64,000 nt of DNA, from positions 186,001 to 250,000 of the forward strand of contig JAUXNX010000026.1 in NCBI GenBank assembly GCA_030682575.1. Direction: 5' to 3'. Below, one piece after another: positions 60,536 to 64,000 of the stretch (the stretch's first letter is position 1; each line of letters starts with the position of its first letter). Position numbers and translations under genes: made by a program. Origin of the DNA: Gammaproteobacteria bacterium (GTDB lineage Bacteria > Pseudomonadota > Gammaproteobacteria > Pseudomonadales > Pseudohongiellaceae). The notes under the pieces were generated by a model. The model made no database searches, was not told the origin of the DNA, and saw nothing but the letters and a program-made list of their open reading frames with translations.

Positions 60536-62098
60536 TCATCGCACTTCGAGATTGATTTCACTCATGATGAGCCACTGTGAGTCTTCTCTTACCAGATTCA
60601 GTTTCTTCAGTGTGTCATCGCTGTAGTCCGGGGACGAGTATTTGAGCCAGAACTGCAATTCAGTGTAGGAGTCGGAAGTAGTGAGAACCTCCATGTCGGT
60701 AATGTCGATCTCGATCCAGGCCTTGGTGGTGATGCTGCGACGCCTGTCCTGACGCCATGCATCGACAGTGGGATGATTGCGTGGCACGAAGTTGCCGTGG
60801 TAGCTGGCAAAGTAGCCGTCCATGTCTCTGGCCTCCCACGCGCTGACCCAAGCTTCGACGGCTTGCTCTGGCGCGACCTCAGTGCCGGTCACGGTTTCCG
60901 CAATTGCTACTGGTTCAGTCGCAGGTGTGACGTCTGGCACCACCACCTCCACTTCGGGGAGCGGCACCGGAGTGAGCACGGTGCTTTCGACAGCAGAGGC
61001 AATGTTGGAATCTGCCGGGATCTCGGCAGTGGATTCTGGCTCAATTGCAGGAGTAACCTCGGGAGCGGCAACAATTTCAGGCTCGGTGATAGTGGGTTCA
61101 ATGCGAGCAGTTTCCACGGTTGAAGGTTCCACGGTTGAAGATTCGACAATCAGTGGCACTATAGTGGGAGGGGCAACTGCTGTGGAAGCTGGACTGGCAG
61201 CGACTTCGCTCACCACGGGAGTACTGGGCGCCTCTCGCAAATTCTGATATGCCAGACCAAAGACCAGCAGCGCCAGTACCGCAAATACAGGGGCGGCCAC
61301 TGCTATCCCGTTGTAAGAGAAATAGTATGTCCTGCCACCATCTCCGGTGTTGGCGGAAGGGTGTTTCAGTGCGGCCAACACTTCGAGCCGGCCGATCGAA
61401 TCAAGTTCGGTGCTATCGGCGCGCGACTCTGCTATCAGTTTGCAGACATTCAGCACAGTGCCCGGTCTTCCACCGGTGGCCTTGTACAACATGCTCAATG
61501 CAGCAGGATCGAACTGCACACCAGGTTGGTCGATGGACTGGTAGTATTGGGACACGAACTCGGCAAGTGCTTTCTTGTTGGGAAGCCCAAGGCTCACGGT
61601 GTAGGAAATTCGTTGCCGCAGTGGCTGCAGTTGTTTCGAATTGGCAATGTGCCTGGCCATTGCCGGAGTACCACACATGATGATGTTCATCATGCGGCTG
61701 TCGTCGATCTGGATGTCTGTGAGTCTGCACATTTCCAGAAGTGTCTTGTCCGACATGAACTGGCAGTCATCAAAGATCAGCACGACGCCCTTGCAGGATT
61801 CGTTTTCGTGAATCAACTGCTCCTGCAGTCTACGTGAAAAATTGTAGGAGCTTGGCAATTCAAAAAACTCTCCGACGAGTTTGCGCAGTTCCTCTGGTGA
61901 ATCCGGACAAACGGGGAAAAAACCTGTGCGAAAGCCGTTATCTTCGAATCGATTTTGCAGTTGATGAAGCAGTGCAGTCTTGCCACCACCTTCTTCACCG
62001 ACCAACAGCGAGAAGAATTGCGGGTCGTGCAGCGACGCTTCAAAACGTGCGAGAACGCTATGGTAAGGTTCGATACTGAAGTACATGGCTAGTCCCAT
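60536..62098 (-). CDS. ExeA-like AAA ATPase with periplasmic NTF2/Cds6_C-like domain
   Basis: A 520-residue protein. The cytoplasmic N-terminal ATPase (about residues 1-250) has MYFSIEPYHSVLARFEASLHDPQFFSLLVGEEGGGKTALL with Walker A at 33-41 and Walker B VVLIFDD at 105-111, as in ExeA/GspA. One membrane span (264-285) is followed by a Pro/Thr/Val/Glu-rich linker (about 290-405) and a C-terminal NTF2/SnoaL-like domain (about 410-520: AWVSAWEARDMDGYFASYHGNF). The usual ExeA peptidoglycan-binding domain is missing. The same C-terminal domain ends the divergently encoded L,D-transpeptidase. The start may be ATG 62086. It probably couples ATP use to cell-wall contact. Confidence 0.85.
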   Translation of the reverse strand: MGLAMYFSIEPYHSVLARFEASLHDPQFFSLLVGEEGGGKTALLHQLQNRFEDNGFRTGFFPVCPDSPEELRKLVGEFFELPSSYNFSRRLQEQLIHENESCKGVVLIFDDCQFMSDKTLLEMCRLTDIQIDDSRMMNIIMCGTPAMARHIANSKQLQPLRQRISYTVSLGLPNKKALAEFVSQYYQSIDQPGVQFDPAALSMLYKATGGRPGTVLNVCKLIAESRADSTELDSIGRLEVLAALKHPSANTGDGGRTYYFSYNGIAVAAPVFAVLALLVFGLAYQNLREAPSTPVVSEVAASPASTAVAPPTIVPLIVESSTVEPSTVETARIEPTITEPEIVAAPEVTPAIEPESTAEIPADSNIASAVESTVLTPVPLPEVEVVVPDVTPATEPVAIAETVTGTEVAPEQAVEAWVSAWEARDMDGYFASYHGNFVPRNHPTVDAWRQDRRRSITTKAWIEIDITDMEVLTTSDSYTELQFWLKYSSPDYSDDTLKKLNLVREDSQWLIMSEINLEVR

Positions 62099-62313
62099 TA
62101 GCGCTGCGGCGATGTGAATAGAGGACGAAAATTCCGGGAGTTTTTAGTCTGGTGGTCATTGTAGACCAAGTTTTTAGCACTGCCGAGGGGGCAGGTCGAC
62201 TGTGATCATCTGGCAACTCCTTACCTTTTTGTGAAACAAGTTCCTCTAAGTGCTTGCATTCAAAAGACTTGTTGGATATTCTCCCTCGGCATAAAACTTC
62301 GAGGATACCTCTG

Positions 62314-63360
62314 GTGAAGAAGAAGGTCTTGAAAATCTCCTCCCGCCGTAATTTTTCTCTCTGGATTTTTTTTCTGGCAGCCTTGGCCCCCCCTGAATTA
62401 TTGGCCCAGGCCGGAGCATTTCCTGCCATCTCTCTGGAGTCCGGCAACAGCAGCAGTCTCCACAATCTGATCGAATCCGGTGAAGGCGGTTCGGGCAGAC
62501 TTGAAGCCATCGCAGAACCGCAAAGACCGGAAGGCATCCTGAAACTGGCTGACGGTCAGCGCTACCTTATATGGGTGGAATTGCAGCGCGGTCGTCTGAA
62601 CGTCATGGAAAAGCAGGACAACGGCGGCCTGGTCACGCGCAAGATCATCCCCATCTCCATTGGCAAGAACGGCTACGGCAAGGAAGTCGAAGGCGACAAG
62701 CTGACCCCGGTCGGCGTCTACAGGCTGACCAGTTACCTTGACGACAATACATTGGATGATTTCTATGGTCGCGGCGCTTATCCGCTGAACTATCCCAATG
62801 CACATGACCGTTTGCTGAAACGCACTGGTCACGGCATCTGGCTGCATGGTCTGCCCAAAGATCAAAAGCAACGCCCGCTACTCGACAGCGACGGTTGTGT
62901 GGTAGTCGATAACGCGACACTGCAGGAGCTTGCCAACTACATCCAGACTGGCGCTACGCACATCGTTCTATCCGAAGGCGATATCAAATGGTCTCCGGTG
63001 CAGAATTTCAAAGAGCGAGAGGCGGCACTTGCCAGTGCATTCGAGGACTGGCGGTTGTCATGGCAGGAAATCGACAACACCGGGTATCTATCCCACTATG
63101 CCGATGATTTCCACGATCTCATCAATTTCGACAAGGCGGCCTGGTCGCGCTACAAGTCCCGCGTCAACAACGCCAAGTCCTATATCAAGGTTGATATTTC
63201 GCAGGCCAGTTTCATCGCCGATCCGCGCGATGAGGCCCTCGTGACAGTACGTTTCTATCAGAACTACCAGAGCAGCAATCACAACTGGACAGGTTGGAAG
63301 GAACAGCTTTGGCAGGAAACCGACGACGGCTGGAAAATTCTGTACGAAGGCAACGGGTAA
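62314..63360 (+). CDS. L,D-transpeptidase-fold enzyme, Csd6/Pgp2 type, with C-terminal NTF2-like domain
   Basis: A 348-residue protein. The GTG at 62314 has GAGGA 8 bases upstream and gives a signal peptide (residues 1-32, ending LLAQ). The YkuD catalytic domain (about 80-222) contains GKNGYGKEVEGDKLTPVGVYRLTS, catalytic His178 in GHGIWLHGLP and Cys195 in SDGCVVVDN. The C-terminal domain (about 235-347: SWQEIDNTGYLSHYADDFHDL ... DDGWKILYEG) is of the NTF2/Cds6_C type found in H. pylori Csd6 and C. jejuni Pgp2, which trim tetrapeptides as L,D-carboxypeptidases. Other relatives cross-link peptidoglycan. The M14 peptidase gene follows 5 bases on. Confidence 0.88.
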   Translation: MKKKVLKISSRRNFSLWIFFLAALAPPELLAQAGAFPAISLESGNSSSLHNLIESGEGGSGRLEAIAEPQRPEGILKLADGQRYLIWVELQRGRLNVMEKQDNGGLVTRKIIPISIGKNGYGKEVEGDKLTPVGVYRLTSYLDDNTLDDFYGRGAYPLNYPNAHDRLLKRTGHGIWLHGLPKDQKQRPLLDSDGCVVVDNATLQELANYIQTGATHIVLSEGDIKWSPVQNFKEREAALASAFEDWRLSWQEIDNTGYLSHYADDFHDLINFDKAAWSRYKSRVNNAKSYIKVDISQASFIADPRDEALVTVRFYQNYQSSNHNWTGWKEQLWQETDDGWKILYEGNG

Positions 63361-63365
63361 GTCTG

Positions 63366-64000
63366 ATGAGTTGGAAGCACCCTCTGATCCTGGTGTGTAT
63401 CGCTCTTGCAGCGTGCCAGGTGCCTGTACGTGATTCTGCGCAAGTATCCGAGAATGTATCGGAGTCGGCTCTGCCCGCGATTGCTGCCGACACGACTGCA
63501 CCTGCCGCCGAGATTGTCGCGCCTGATATAGATTTCCCGACTCCCATCGCCGAGACTGCTACGACTGCTGCTGCATCTGATGCAATTCAAACTCCCCCAC
63601 AAGACCAGGCTCTGCCCGCGATTGCCGCAGAGAATGCGTCCACGCCATCAGCATCTGAACCTCCGTCAGTAGTCGTGAGCGAAGCCCGCTCTGACAAAAC
63701 TCCAGCAATGTCCACCGCTTCCGCCCGGCACCCACTGATCGATTCTCTGTGCAGGGAAATTGGTGGCAAGCTCGGCAGTGTCACCATTGAAGATTGTAAG
63801 GCGCAGGACCTGCAGTTCTCCGGCAGCCTGTCCGTGAACGAAAGAGCGCTGGCCTTCAAGGATGTGCTGCCACCTGCAAATCAGCCTGTTTCCCGCGTGA
63901 TGATCATCGGTGGCATCCACGGCGACGAATACTCGTCCATCTCCATCATGTTTCGTTGGATGGAAATTCTGCAAAGGACGCCGAGCGACTTCTTCCACTG
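63366..64000 (+). CDS. M14-family zinc peptidase lipoprotein (N-terminal part)
   Basis: The first 211 codons are visible; the rest lies beyond the window. The lipoprotein signal is MSWKHPLILVCIALAAC with Cys17. A long Ala/Pro/Ser/Glu-rich linker (about 20-120) has the unit ALPAIAA(D/E) twice and probably spans part of the periplasm. The catalytic domain starts near VSRVMIIGGIHGDEYSSISIMFRWMEIL; H-G-D-E is the first zinc-ligand motif (HxxE) of M14 carboxypeptidases and related amidases such as MpaA and Csd4. The ATG is 5 bases past the L,D-transpeptidase stop, so the genes form an operon. Peptidoglycan trimming is the likely job; the second zinc His is not in view. Confidence 0.82.
   Translation, partial: MSWKHPLILVCIALAACQVPVRDSAQVSENVSESALPAIAADTTAPAAEIVAPDIDFPTPIAETATTAAASDAIQTPPQDQALPAIAAENASTPSASEPPSVVVSEARSDKTPAMSTASARHPLIDSLCREIGGKLGSVTIEDCKAQDLQFSGSLSVNERALAFKDVLPPANQPVSRVMIIGGIHGDEYSSISIMFRWMEILQRTPSDFFH

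Follow-up and report, generated by a model that had tools for sequence, protein, structure and literature searches.

Csd6 of Helicobacter pylori, Pgp2 of Campylobacter jejuni and Bd1075 of Bdellovibrio represent a type of enzyme that shortens the side chains of the cell wall and is responsible for the curved cells of these genera, and all three join a YkuD catalytic domain to an NTF2-like domain of the Cds6_C family. In C. jejuni, this domain of Pgp2 binds peptidoglycan and its pocket residues Y233, F242, K257, K307 and E324 are required for helical shape (PMC8038945), and in Bdellovibrio it is the NTF2 domain of Bd1075 that directs the enzyme to one face of the cell (PMC8938487). The partners Csd4 and Pgp1 are D,L-carboxypeptidases, zinc peptidases of the M14 type (Peptidase_M99), and dipeptides are the product of both Pgp1 and the Escherichia coli murein tripeptide amidase MpaA (PMC3310789). 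A further wall-binding protein, ExeA, is a cytoplasmic ATPase with one membrane helix and a periplasmic domain that binds peptidoglycan, forming multimers that the wall induces (PMC4098917). Here we describe a three-gene cassette at the end of a 64,000-nucleotide stretch of a Pseudohongiellaceae genome (the window; G000:C28:186001-250000 in our numbering, contig JAUXNX010000026.1), in which a Csd6-type enzyme gene is followed by an M14 peptidase gene and faces, on the opposite strand, the gene of an ExeA-like membrane ATPase that also ends in Cds6_C.

We read the cassette as a peptidoglycan-trimming unit that would take tetrapeptides through tripeptides to dipeptides, accompanied by a wall-docked ATPase that would position or gate the trimming, and we give this reading a probability of about 0.55. 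The cassette joins a gammaproteobacterial Csd6-group enzyme to a partner from an M14 family other than Csd4's and to a membrane ATPase that shares the wall-binding domain. The arrangement suggests an undescribed route by which an energy-consuming machine in the cell interior could be coupled to the trimming of the wall, and we found no paper in open-access text that names PF24125 (Cds6_C) or describes an architecture of Cds6_C with an AAA ATPase. The features, in window coordinates, are as follows.

60536..62098, minus strand: ExeA-like membrane ATPase gene, 520 amino acids, laid out as AAA+ domain, one transmembrane helix, low-complexity periplasmic linker and Cds6_C (open reading frame, AAA_22 and Cds6_C matches, hydrophobic helix, AlphaFold model)
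61661..62014, minus strand: AAA_22 domain of the ATPase, motifs GEEGGGKT (Walker A) and VLIFDD (Walker B) (profile match, motifs, fold)
61238..61306, minus strand: single predicted transmembrane helix, residues ~265-287 (hydropathy and a predicted helix at 270-287; topology predicted)
60557..60865, minus strand: Cds6_C NTF2-like domain of the ATPase, pocket Y429, F437, R452, K498, E514 (profile, fold, alignment)
62099..62313, no strand: divergent intergenic region between the ATPase and carboxypeptidase genes, 215 bases
62314..63360, plus strand: Csd6/Pgp2/Bd1075-type L,D-carboxypeptidase gene, by profile matches, with signal peptide, YkuD and Cds6_C
62563..62964, plus strand: YkuD catalytic domain with E127, Y152, H174, W177, H179, C196 (numbering from 62311)
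63028..63348, plus strand: Cds6_C NTF2-like domain of the carboxypeptidase, pocket Y259, F267, K282, K330, E346
63366..64000, plus strand: N-terminal part of the M14 zinc-peptidase lipoprotein gene, which continues outside the window to about 64535 (whole gene L002:5367-6536)

The carboxypeptidase and its M14 partner

The open reading frame of the enzyme spans 62311-63360 on the plus strand, and GTG at 62314 is its likelier start because GAGGA lies upstream. Its YkuD domain (residues 85-218; 62.5 bits, above the Pfam cut-off) is followed by Cds6_C (residues 240-346; 81.4 bits against a cut-off of 27), and an enzyme profile (A1), built from twelve relatives and run against the PDB, matches Bd1075 (7o21, E 8e-65), Csd6 (4xzz, 1.5e-51) and Pgp2 (6xj6, 8e-45). 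Csd6 activity is abolished by mutating any of E110, Y133, H155, W158, H160 and C176 (PMC4599014); all six residues are kept in the window enzyme, as E127, Y152, H174, W177, H179 and C196, with Y152, W177, H179 and C196 invariant across the alignment of the twelve relatives. The Arg that marks transpeptidases, present in L,D-transpeptidases and missing from L,D-carboxypeptidases and DpaA (PMC8263019), is absent after C196 (CVVVDN). By sequence, the protein falls among the L,D-carboxypeptidases of the Csd6 group, sharing with Csd6, Pgp2 and Bd1075 the domain order and all essential active-site and pocket residues; unlike them it belongs to a gammaproteobacterial host, and its gene stands directly beside those of an M14 protein and a second Cds6_C protein.

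Alternatively, the YkuD enzyme could be an amidase like DpaA, releasing outer-membrane proteins from their attachment to the wall, and the M14 protein could clean up after it; DpaA is indeed close to the Csd6-type enzymes, and neither has the transpeptidase Arg (PMC8263019). We consider this very unlikely: the closest solved relatives of the enzyme are three L,D-carboxypeptidases, every residue that Csd6 needs for carboxypeptidase activity is kept, Cds6_C is common to the enzyme and the L,D-carboxypeptidase group, and the adjoining M14 protein would be expected to need a tripeptide substrate.

The stop codon at 63360 and the M14 start codon (ATG at 63366) are separated by five bases, as a preliminary description of the window from its sequence had stated. 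The rest of the M14 gene, whose recovery that description had proposed, completes a protein of 389 amino acids that starts with the lipobox LAAC, making it a predicted lipoprotein, and passes Pfam Peptidase_M14 (49.4 bits, cut-off 21.6). The zinc ligand encoded beyond the window end is present, and the site as a whole (H185xxE188, within HGDE at 185-188, with H296 and E345) is intact and aligns with the matching residues of MpaA; a broken or non-catalytic M14 protein was considered and rejected on the Pfam match and the complete zinc site.

The peptidase differs from its counterparts in the described systems. Csd4 is said to have a Gln zinc ligand, a point credited to Chan et al. in 2015; the window protein has no match to Peptidase_M99, and its ligand motif GGIHGDE carries the canonical His, not Gln. 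Its nearest solved relatives are the MpaA structures 5hxd and 4axv, and its best NCBIfam model is the MpaA equivalog NF007897, which it nevertheless fails (81.1 bits, 157 needed). MpaA is cytoplasmic, unlike this predicted lipoprotein. From profile and motif we take the M14 protein to be an intact zinc peptidase, MpaA-like and outside Csd4's own family (M99), so that the earlier notion of a Csd6/Csd4-like pair stands for the enzyme, in the Csd6/Pgp2/Bd1075 group, and fails for the peptidase. As with Csd4 and Pgp1, an M14-type zinc peptidase is nonetheless paired with a Csd6-like enzyme and is expected to cut the same bond: because Pgp1 and MpaA both yield dipeptides, the window protein would be expected to carry out the same step.

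A true Csd6-Csd4 pair does occur in the order, in G137 (L066:5758-8564), where a YkuD enzyme carrying two Cds6_C domains precedes a Peptidase_M99 with GGIQGDE. Beside it lies a TolC-type OEP protein that itself ends in Cds6_C (L066:4012-5694).

The membrane ATPase and the shared Cds6_C domain

The ATPase matches AAA_22 at residues 29-146 and Cds6_C at residues 412-514 (53.7 bits, Pfam cut-off 27), with both Walker motifs intact (Walker A at residue 34, Walker B at 106). Between the AAA+ domain and the low-complexity linker that leads to Cds6_C there is one hydrophobic helix (residues ~265-287), which would put the C-terminus in the periplasm. In the AlphaFold model (35 sequences), the predicted local distance difference test score (pLDDT) averages 77.8, with AAA blocks mostly at 85-95, Cds6_C at 89-98 and the linker mostly below 50; at a predicted template modelling score (pTM) of 0.53, the model does not fix how the two domains lie relative to each other. 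Foldseek places the AAA part with Cdc6/ORC, TnsC and RuvB, and superposes the C-terminus on the NTF2 domain of Bd1075 (7o21; E 5e-7, root-mean-square deviation 1.5 A over 106 residues, 17% identity). The claim that ATPase and enzyme end in related domains is thereby borne out: both pass Pfam Cds6_C, and profile and fold alike put them in a single family. Like ExeA/GspA and MshM, the protein combines a cytoplasmic AAA_22-type ATPase bearing Walker A and B motifs, one membrane helix and a predicted periplasmic wall-binding domain, but it has Cds6_C in place of ExeA's own wall domain.

By alignment, the five Pgp2 pocket residues correspond to Y259, F267, K282, K330 and E346 in the enzyme and to Y429, F437, R452, K498 and E514 in the ATPase, where the replacement of Lys257 by Arg is the sole change. 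These positions are near-invariant over 156 Cds6_C domains drawn from enzymes, ATPases and other partners. The Lys257 position itself splits by protein type, being Lys in 66 of 67 enzymes and Arg in all 23 ATPases and 65 of 66 other proteins. By analogy with Pgp2, the Cds6_C domain of the ATPase probably binds peptidoglycan.

The pocket also bears on whether the cassette has a role in shape at all. It might instead serve to edit or recycle peptides of the wall, for instance to deplete tetrapeptide donors, with the ATPase incidental to it; a Csd6-like gene of Aeromonas, whose protein is shorter than Csd6, had a subtle effect on length with muropeptides unchanged (PMC4398505). We regard this as rather unlikely, given that enzyme and ATPase both retain the residues on which the shape role of Pgp2 depends and that the ATPase belongs to the inserted unit described below.

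A weakly resolved tree of Cds6_C domains (109 columns) gathers those of the enzymes, 67 rows, into one starred clade and puts the domain of the window ATPase among those of other ATPases. The two Cds6_C domains of the window are therefore old subtypes and not a local copy, and on this tree we rejected the idea that the C-terminal domain had been duplicated recently at this locus. The domain is found on other proteins as well. In G016, an OEP-Cds6_C fusion (L055:7915-10011) carries a domain of the enzyme subtype, 53% identical to that of the window enzyme, as if a TolC-like channel had captured it. In G022, Cds6_C occurs on a MORN-repeat protein (L053:6220-7470) and on a CS1-pilus usher-like TcfC/CooC_C protein (L054:5461-8424), showing it to be a wider envelope accessory.

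Linkage and distribution of the three genes

The ATPase is divergent to the enzyme in six genomes (G000, G016, G695, G698, G699 and G701), with cassette order and orientation the same in the first five; M14 follows the enzyme in five of the six, is absent in G701 and is cut by the contig end in G695. The two Cds6_C domains of the cassette are the only ones above cut-off in the whole window genome, so that adjacency of their genes is unlikely to be chance. Inspected by eye, the regions between the divergent genes show no obvious motif common to the window and the other cassette genomes. G701:C16, from the window's family, shares gene content with CALQJO020000016.1, titled Rhodoferax sp. OV413, and the public label may be wrong.

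Within the window genus, the cassette behaves as one unit. This ATPase is absent in the 13 siblings, and the enzyme and M14 protein are absent genome-wide in the seven siblings tested. The cassette is flanked in the window by a FabH-like gene and a glyoxalase gene, which adjoin each other with no cassette between them in G006 and G012; most simply, therefore, the three genes entered together or were lost together elsewhere. The base composition of the cassette is unremarkable (0.54-0.58 vs 0.555), and no tRNA was found within the window. A GGDEF/Cache gene (L187:8304-9971) stands between the FabH-like and glyoxalase genes in G010, possibly marking an insertion-prone site.

Of 295 genomes in the order, 13 have the enzyme; nine of these have an M14 gene immediately next to it and a tenth has a Peptidase_M99 gene there. 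Among 33 genomes of the family, 11 have both enzyme and M14, one the enzyme only, three M14 only and 18 neither (Fisher p 2e-5, with relatedness not corrected). We also drew a further sample of 80 enzyme loci of named genomes, several of which are the same records as genomes above (L067 = G695, L068 = G701). The enzyme open reading frame was called in 68 and lost to an overlap filter in the other 12, and linkage counts are therefore lower bounds. M14 lies within 150 bases of the enzyme in 28 of the 68 loci, and a Cds6_C protein lies directly upstream on the same strand in 41, having TPR in most of those examined and a coiled-coil-like region in one. Divergent partners are the ATPase in two loci and another Cds6_C protein in one. 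In G034, a TGA interrupts the enzyme gene (L186:3867-4631) next to an apparently intact M14 gene.

The ATPase has a distribution of its own. Of 137 genomes in the window's family, 41 have a member of the ATPase family (E 1e-24); among 369 genomes of the class searched at that threshold, the window genome alone does. In about 30 genomes it occurs with neither the enzyme nor M14 close by.

The ATPase in the proposed mechanism

We propose that the Csd6-type enzyme would act first in the periplasm, taking D-Ala off tetrapeptide stems as an L,D-carboxypeptidase, and that the M14 lipoprotein would then cut the bond between D-Glu and meso-diaminopimelate (mDAP) of the tripeptides to leave dipeptides, as Pgp2 and Pgp1 do in Campylobacter; both steps, and wall binding by Cds6_C, are projected from solved relatives. 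The ATPase would be an inner-membrane protein of the ExeA/MshM type, its AAA+ domain in the cytoplasm and its Cds6_C domain, on one helix and a flexible periplasmic linker, docking on the same peptidoglycan as the enzyme's own. If it behaves like ExeA, wall binding together with ATP-dependent oligomerisation might place it at wall sites where it could position or gate trimming; alternatively, it may prepare the wall for another machine. Placement is an attractive role for a second Cds6_C protein because the NTF2 domain of Bd1075 targets its enzyme, and how peptide-trimming enzymes are directed to one wall region is an open question, as stated for Bd1075 (PMC8938487); a second protein, in which the wall-reading Cds6_C domain is fused to a cytoplasmic ATPase and whose gene is next to that of the enzyme, is a concrete candidate for such targeting. 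The suggestion in the preliminary description that the ATPase reports or drives wall contact is plausible.

Several observations weigh against this reading. Sequence gives no certain distinction between L,D-carboxypeptidases and amidases of the DpaA type. Neither enzyme nor M14 was near the ATPase in 32 other ATPase loci fetched, nearly all from one genus (g5); the 21 g5 genomes searched were without an intact enzyme gene (G711 has one weak YkuD-type match, containing a stop), and M14 of this type was absent in the 10 g5 genomes searched. Other enzyme/M14 pairs have no ATPase next door. Because the ATPase is common in g5 without either protein, it has a use independent of the trimming pair, and an obligate three-gene module was rejected on these grounds: the module foreseen in the preliminary description is linked in other genomes of the family and forms one insert in the window genome, but the ATPase is not its fixed third part, being found alone in the 32 loci, with the carboxypeptidase elsewhere beside other Cds6_C proteins.

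The same distribution would suit an ATPase that, like ExeA or MshM, helps to assemble a trans-envelope machine (secretin or pilus) and does not regulate the enzymes, its adjacency to them reflecting only that local wall thinning helps insertion. Its AAA domain is closest to ExeA-type ATPases (the TIGR03015 match being subthreshold), and weaker ExeA-type relatives in the order have secretin or MSHA-like neighbourhoods, as read from protein sequences. On the other side, no secretin or pilus gene was recognised among the open reading frames flanking the window ATPase, the recurrent g5 neighbours look housekeeping by eye, and the ATPase shares one cassette with the enzymes. We regard this explanation, too, as rather unlikely.

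ATPase loci without the enzymes, together with TPR and coiled-coil partners elsewhere, lead us to see Cds6_C as a shared wall-binding module and the ATPase as its lineage-specific partner. A broader and tentative proposal, which we consider less likely than not, is that Cds6_C may be a general periplasmic wall-recognition module that co-localises envelope proteins with the trimming enzyme, the Lys-type pockets of enzymes and the Arg-type pockets of partners reading different wall states. If this were true, the partner in this lineage being an ATPase, trimming would come under direct control of a cytoplasmic ATP-driven machine. Cds6_C on TolC-type channels, ushers and TPR proteins is predicted to act alike, and the Lys/Arg split at one pocket position gives a simple testable prediction.

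Variants of the ATPase architecture were also seen. ATPases of the same family in L037, L038, L039 and L179 carry a tandem pair of Cds6_C domains. In G208, a 345-amino-acid protein with a membrane helix and Cds6_C (L065:7072-8109) is encoded directly behind a YkuD-Cds6_C enzyme, and its N-terminal part resembles the ATPase domain without a P-loop, perhaps representing a pseudo-ATPase.

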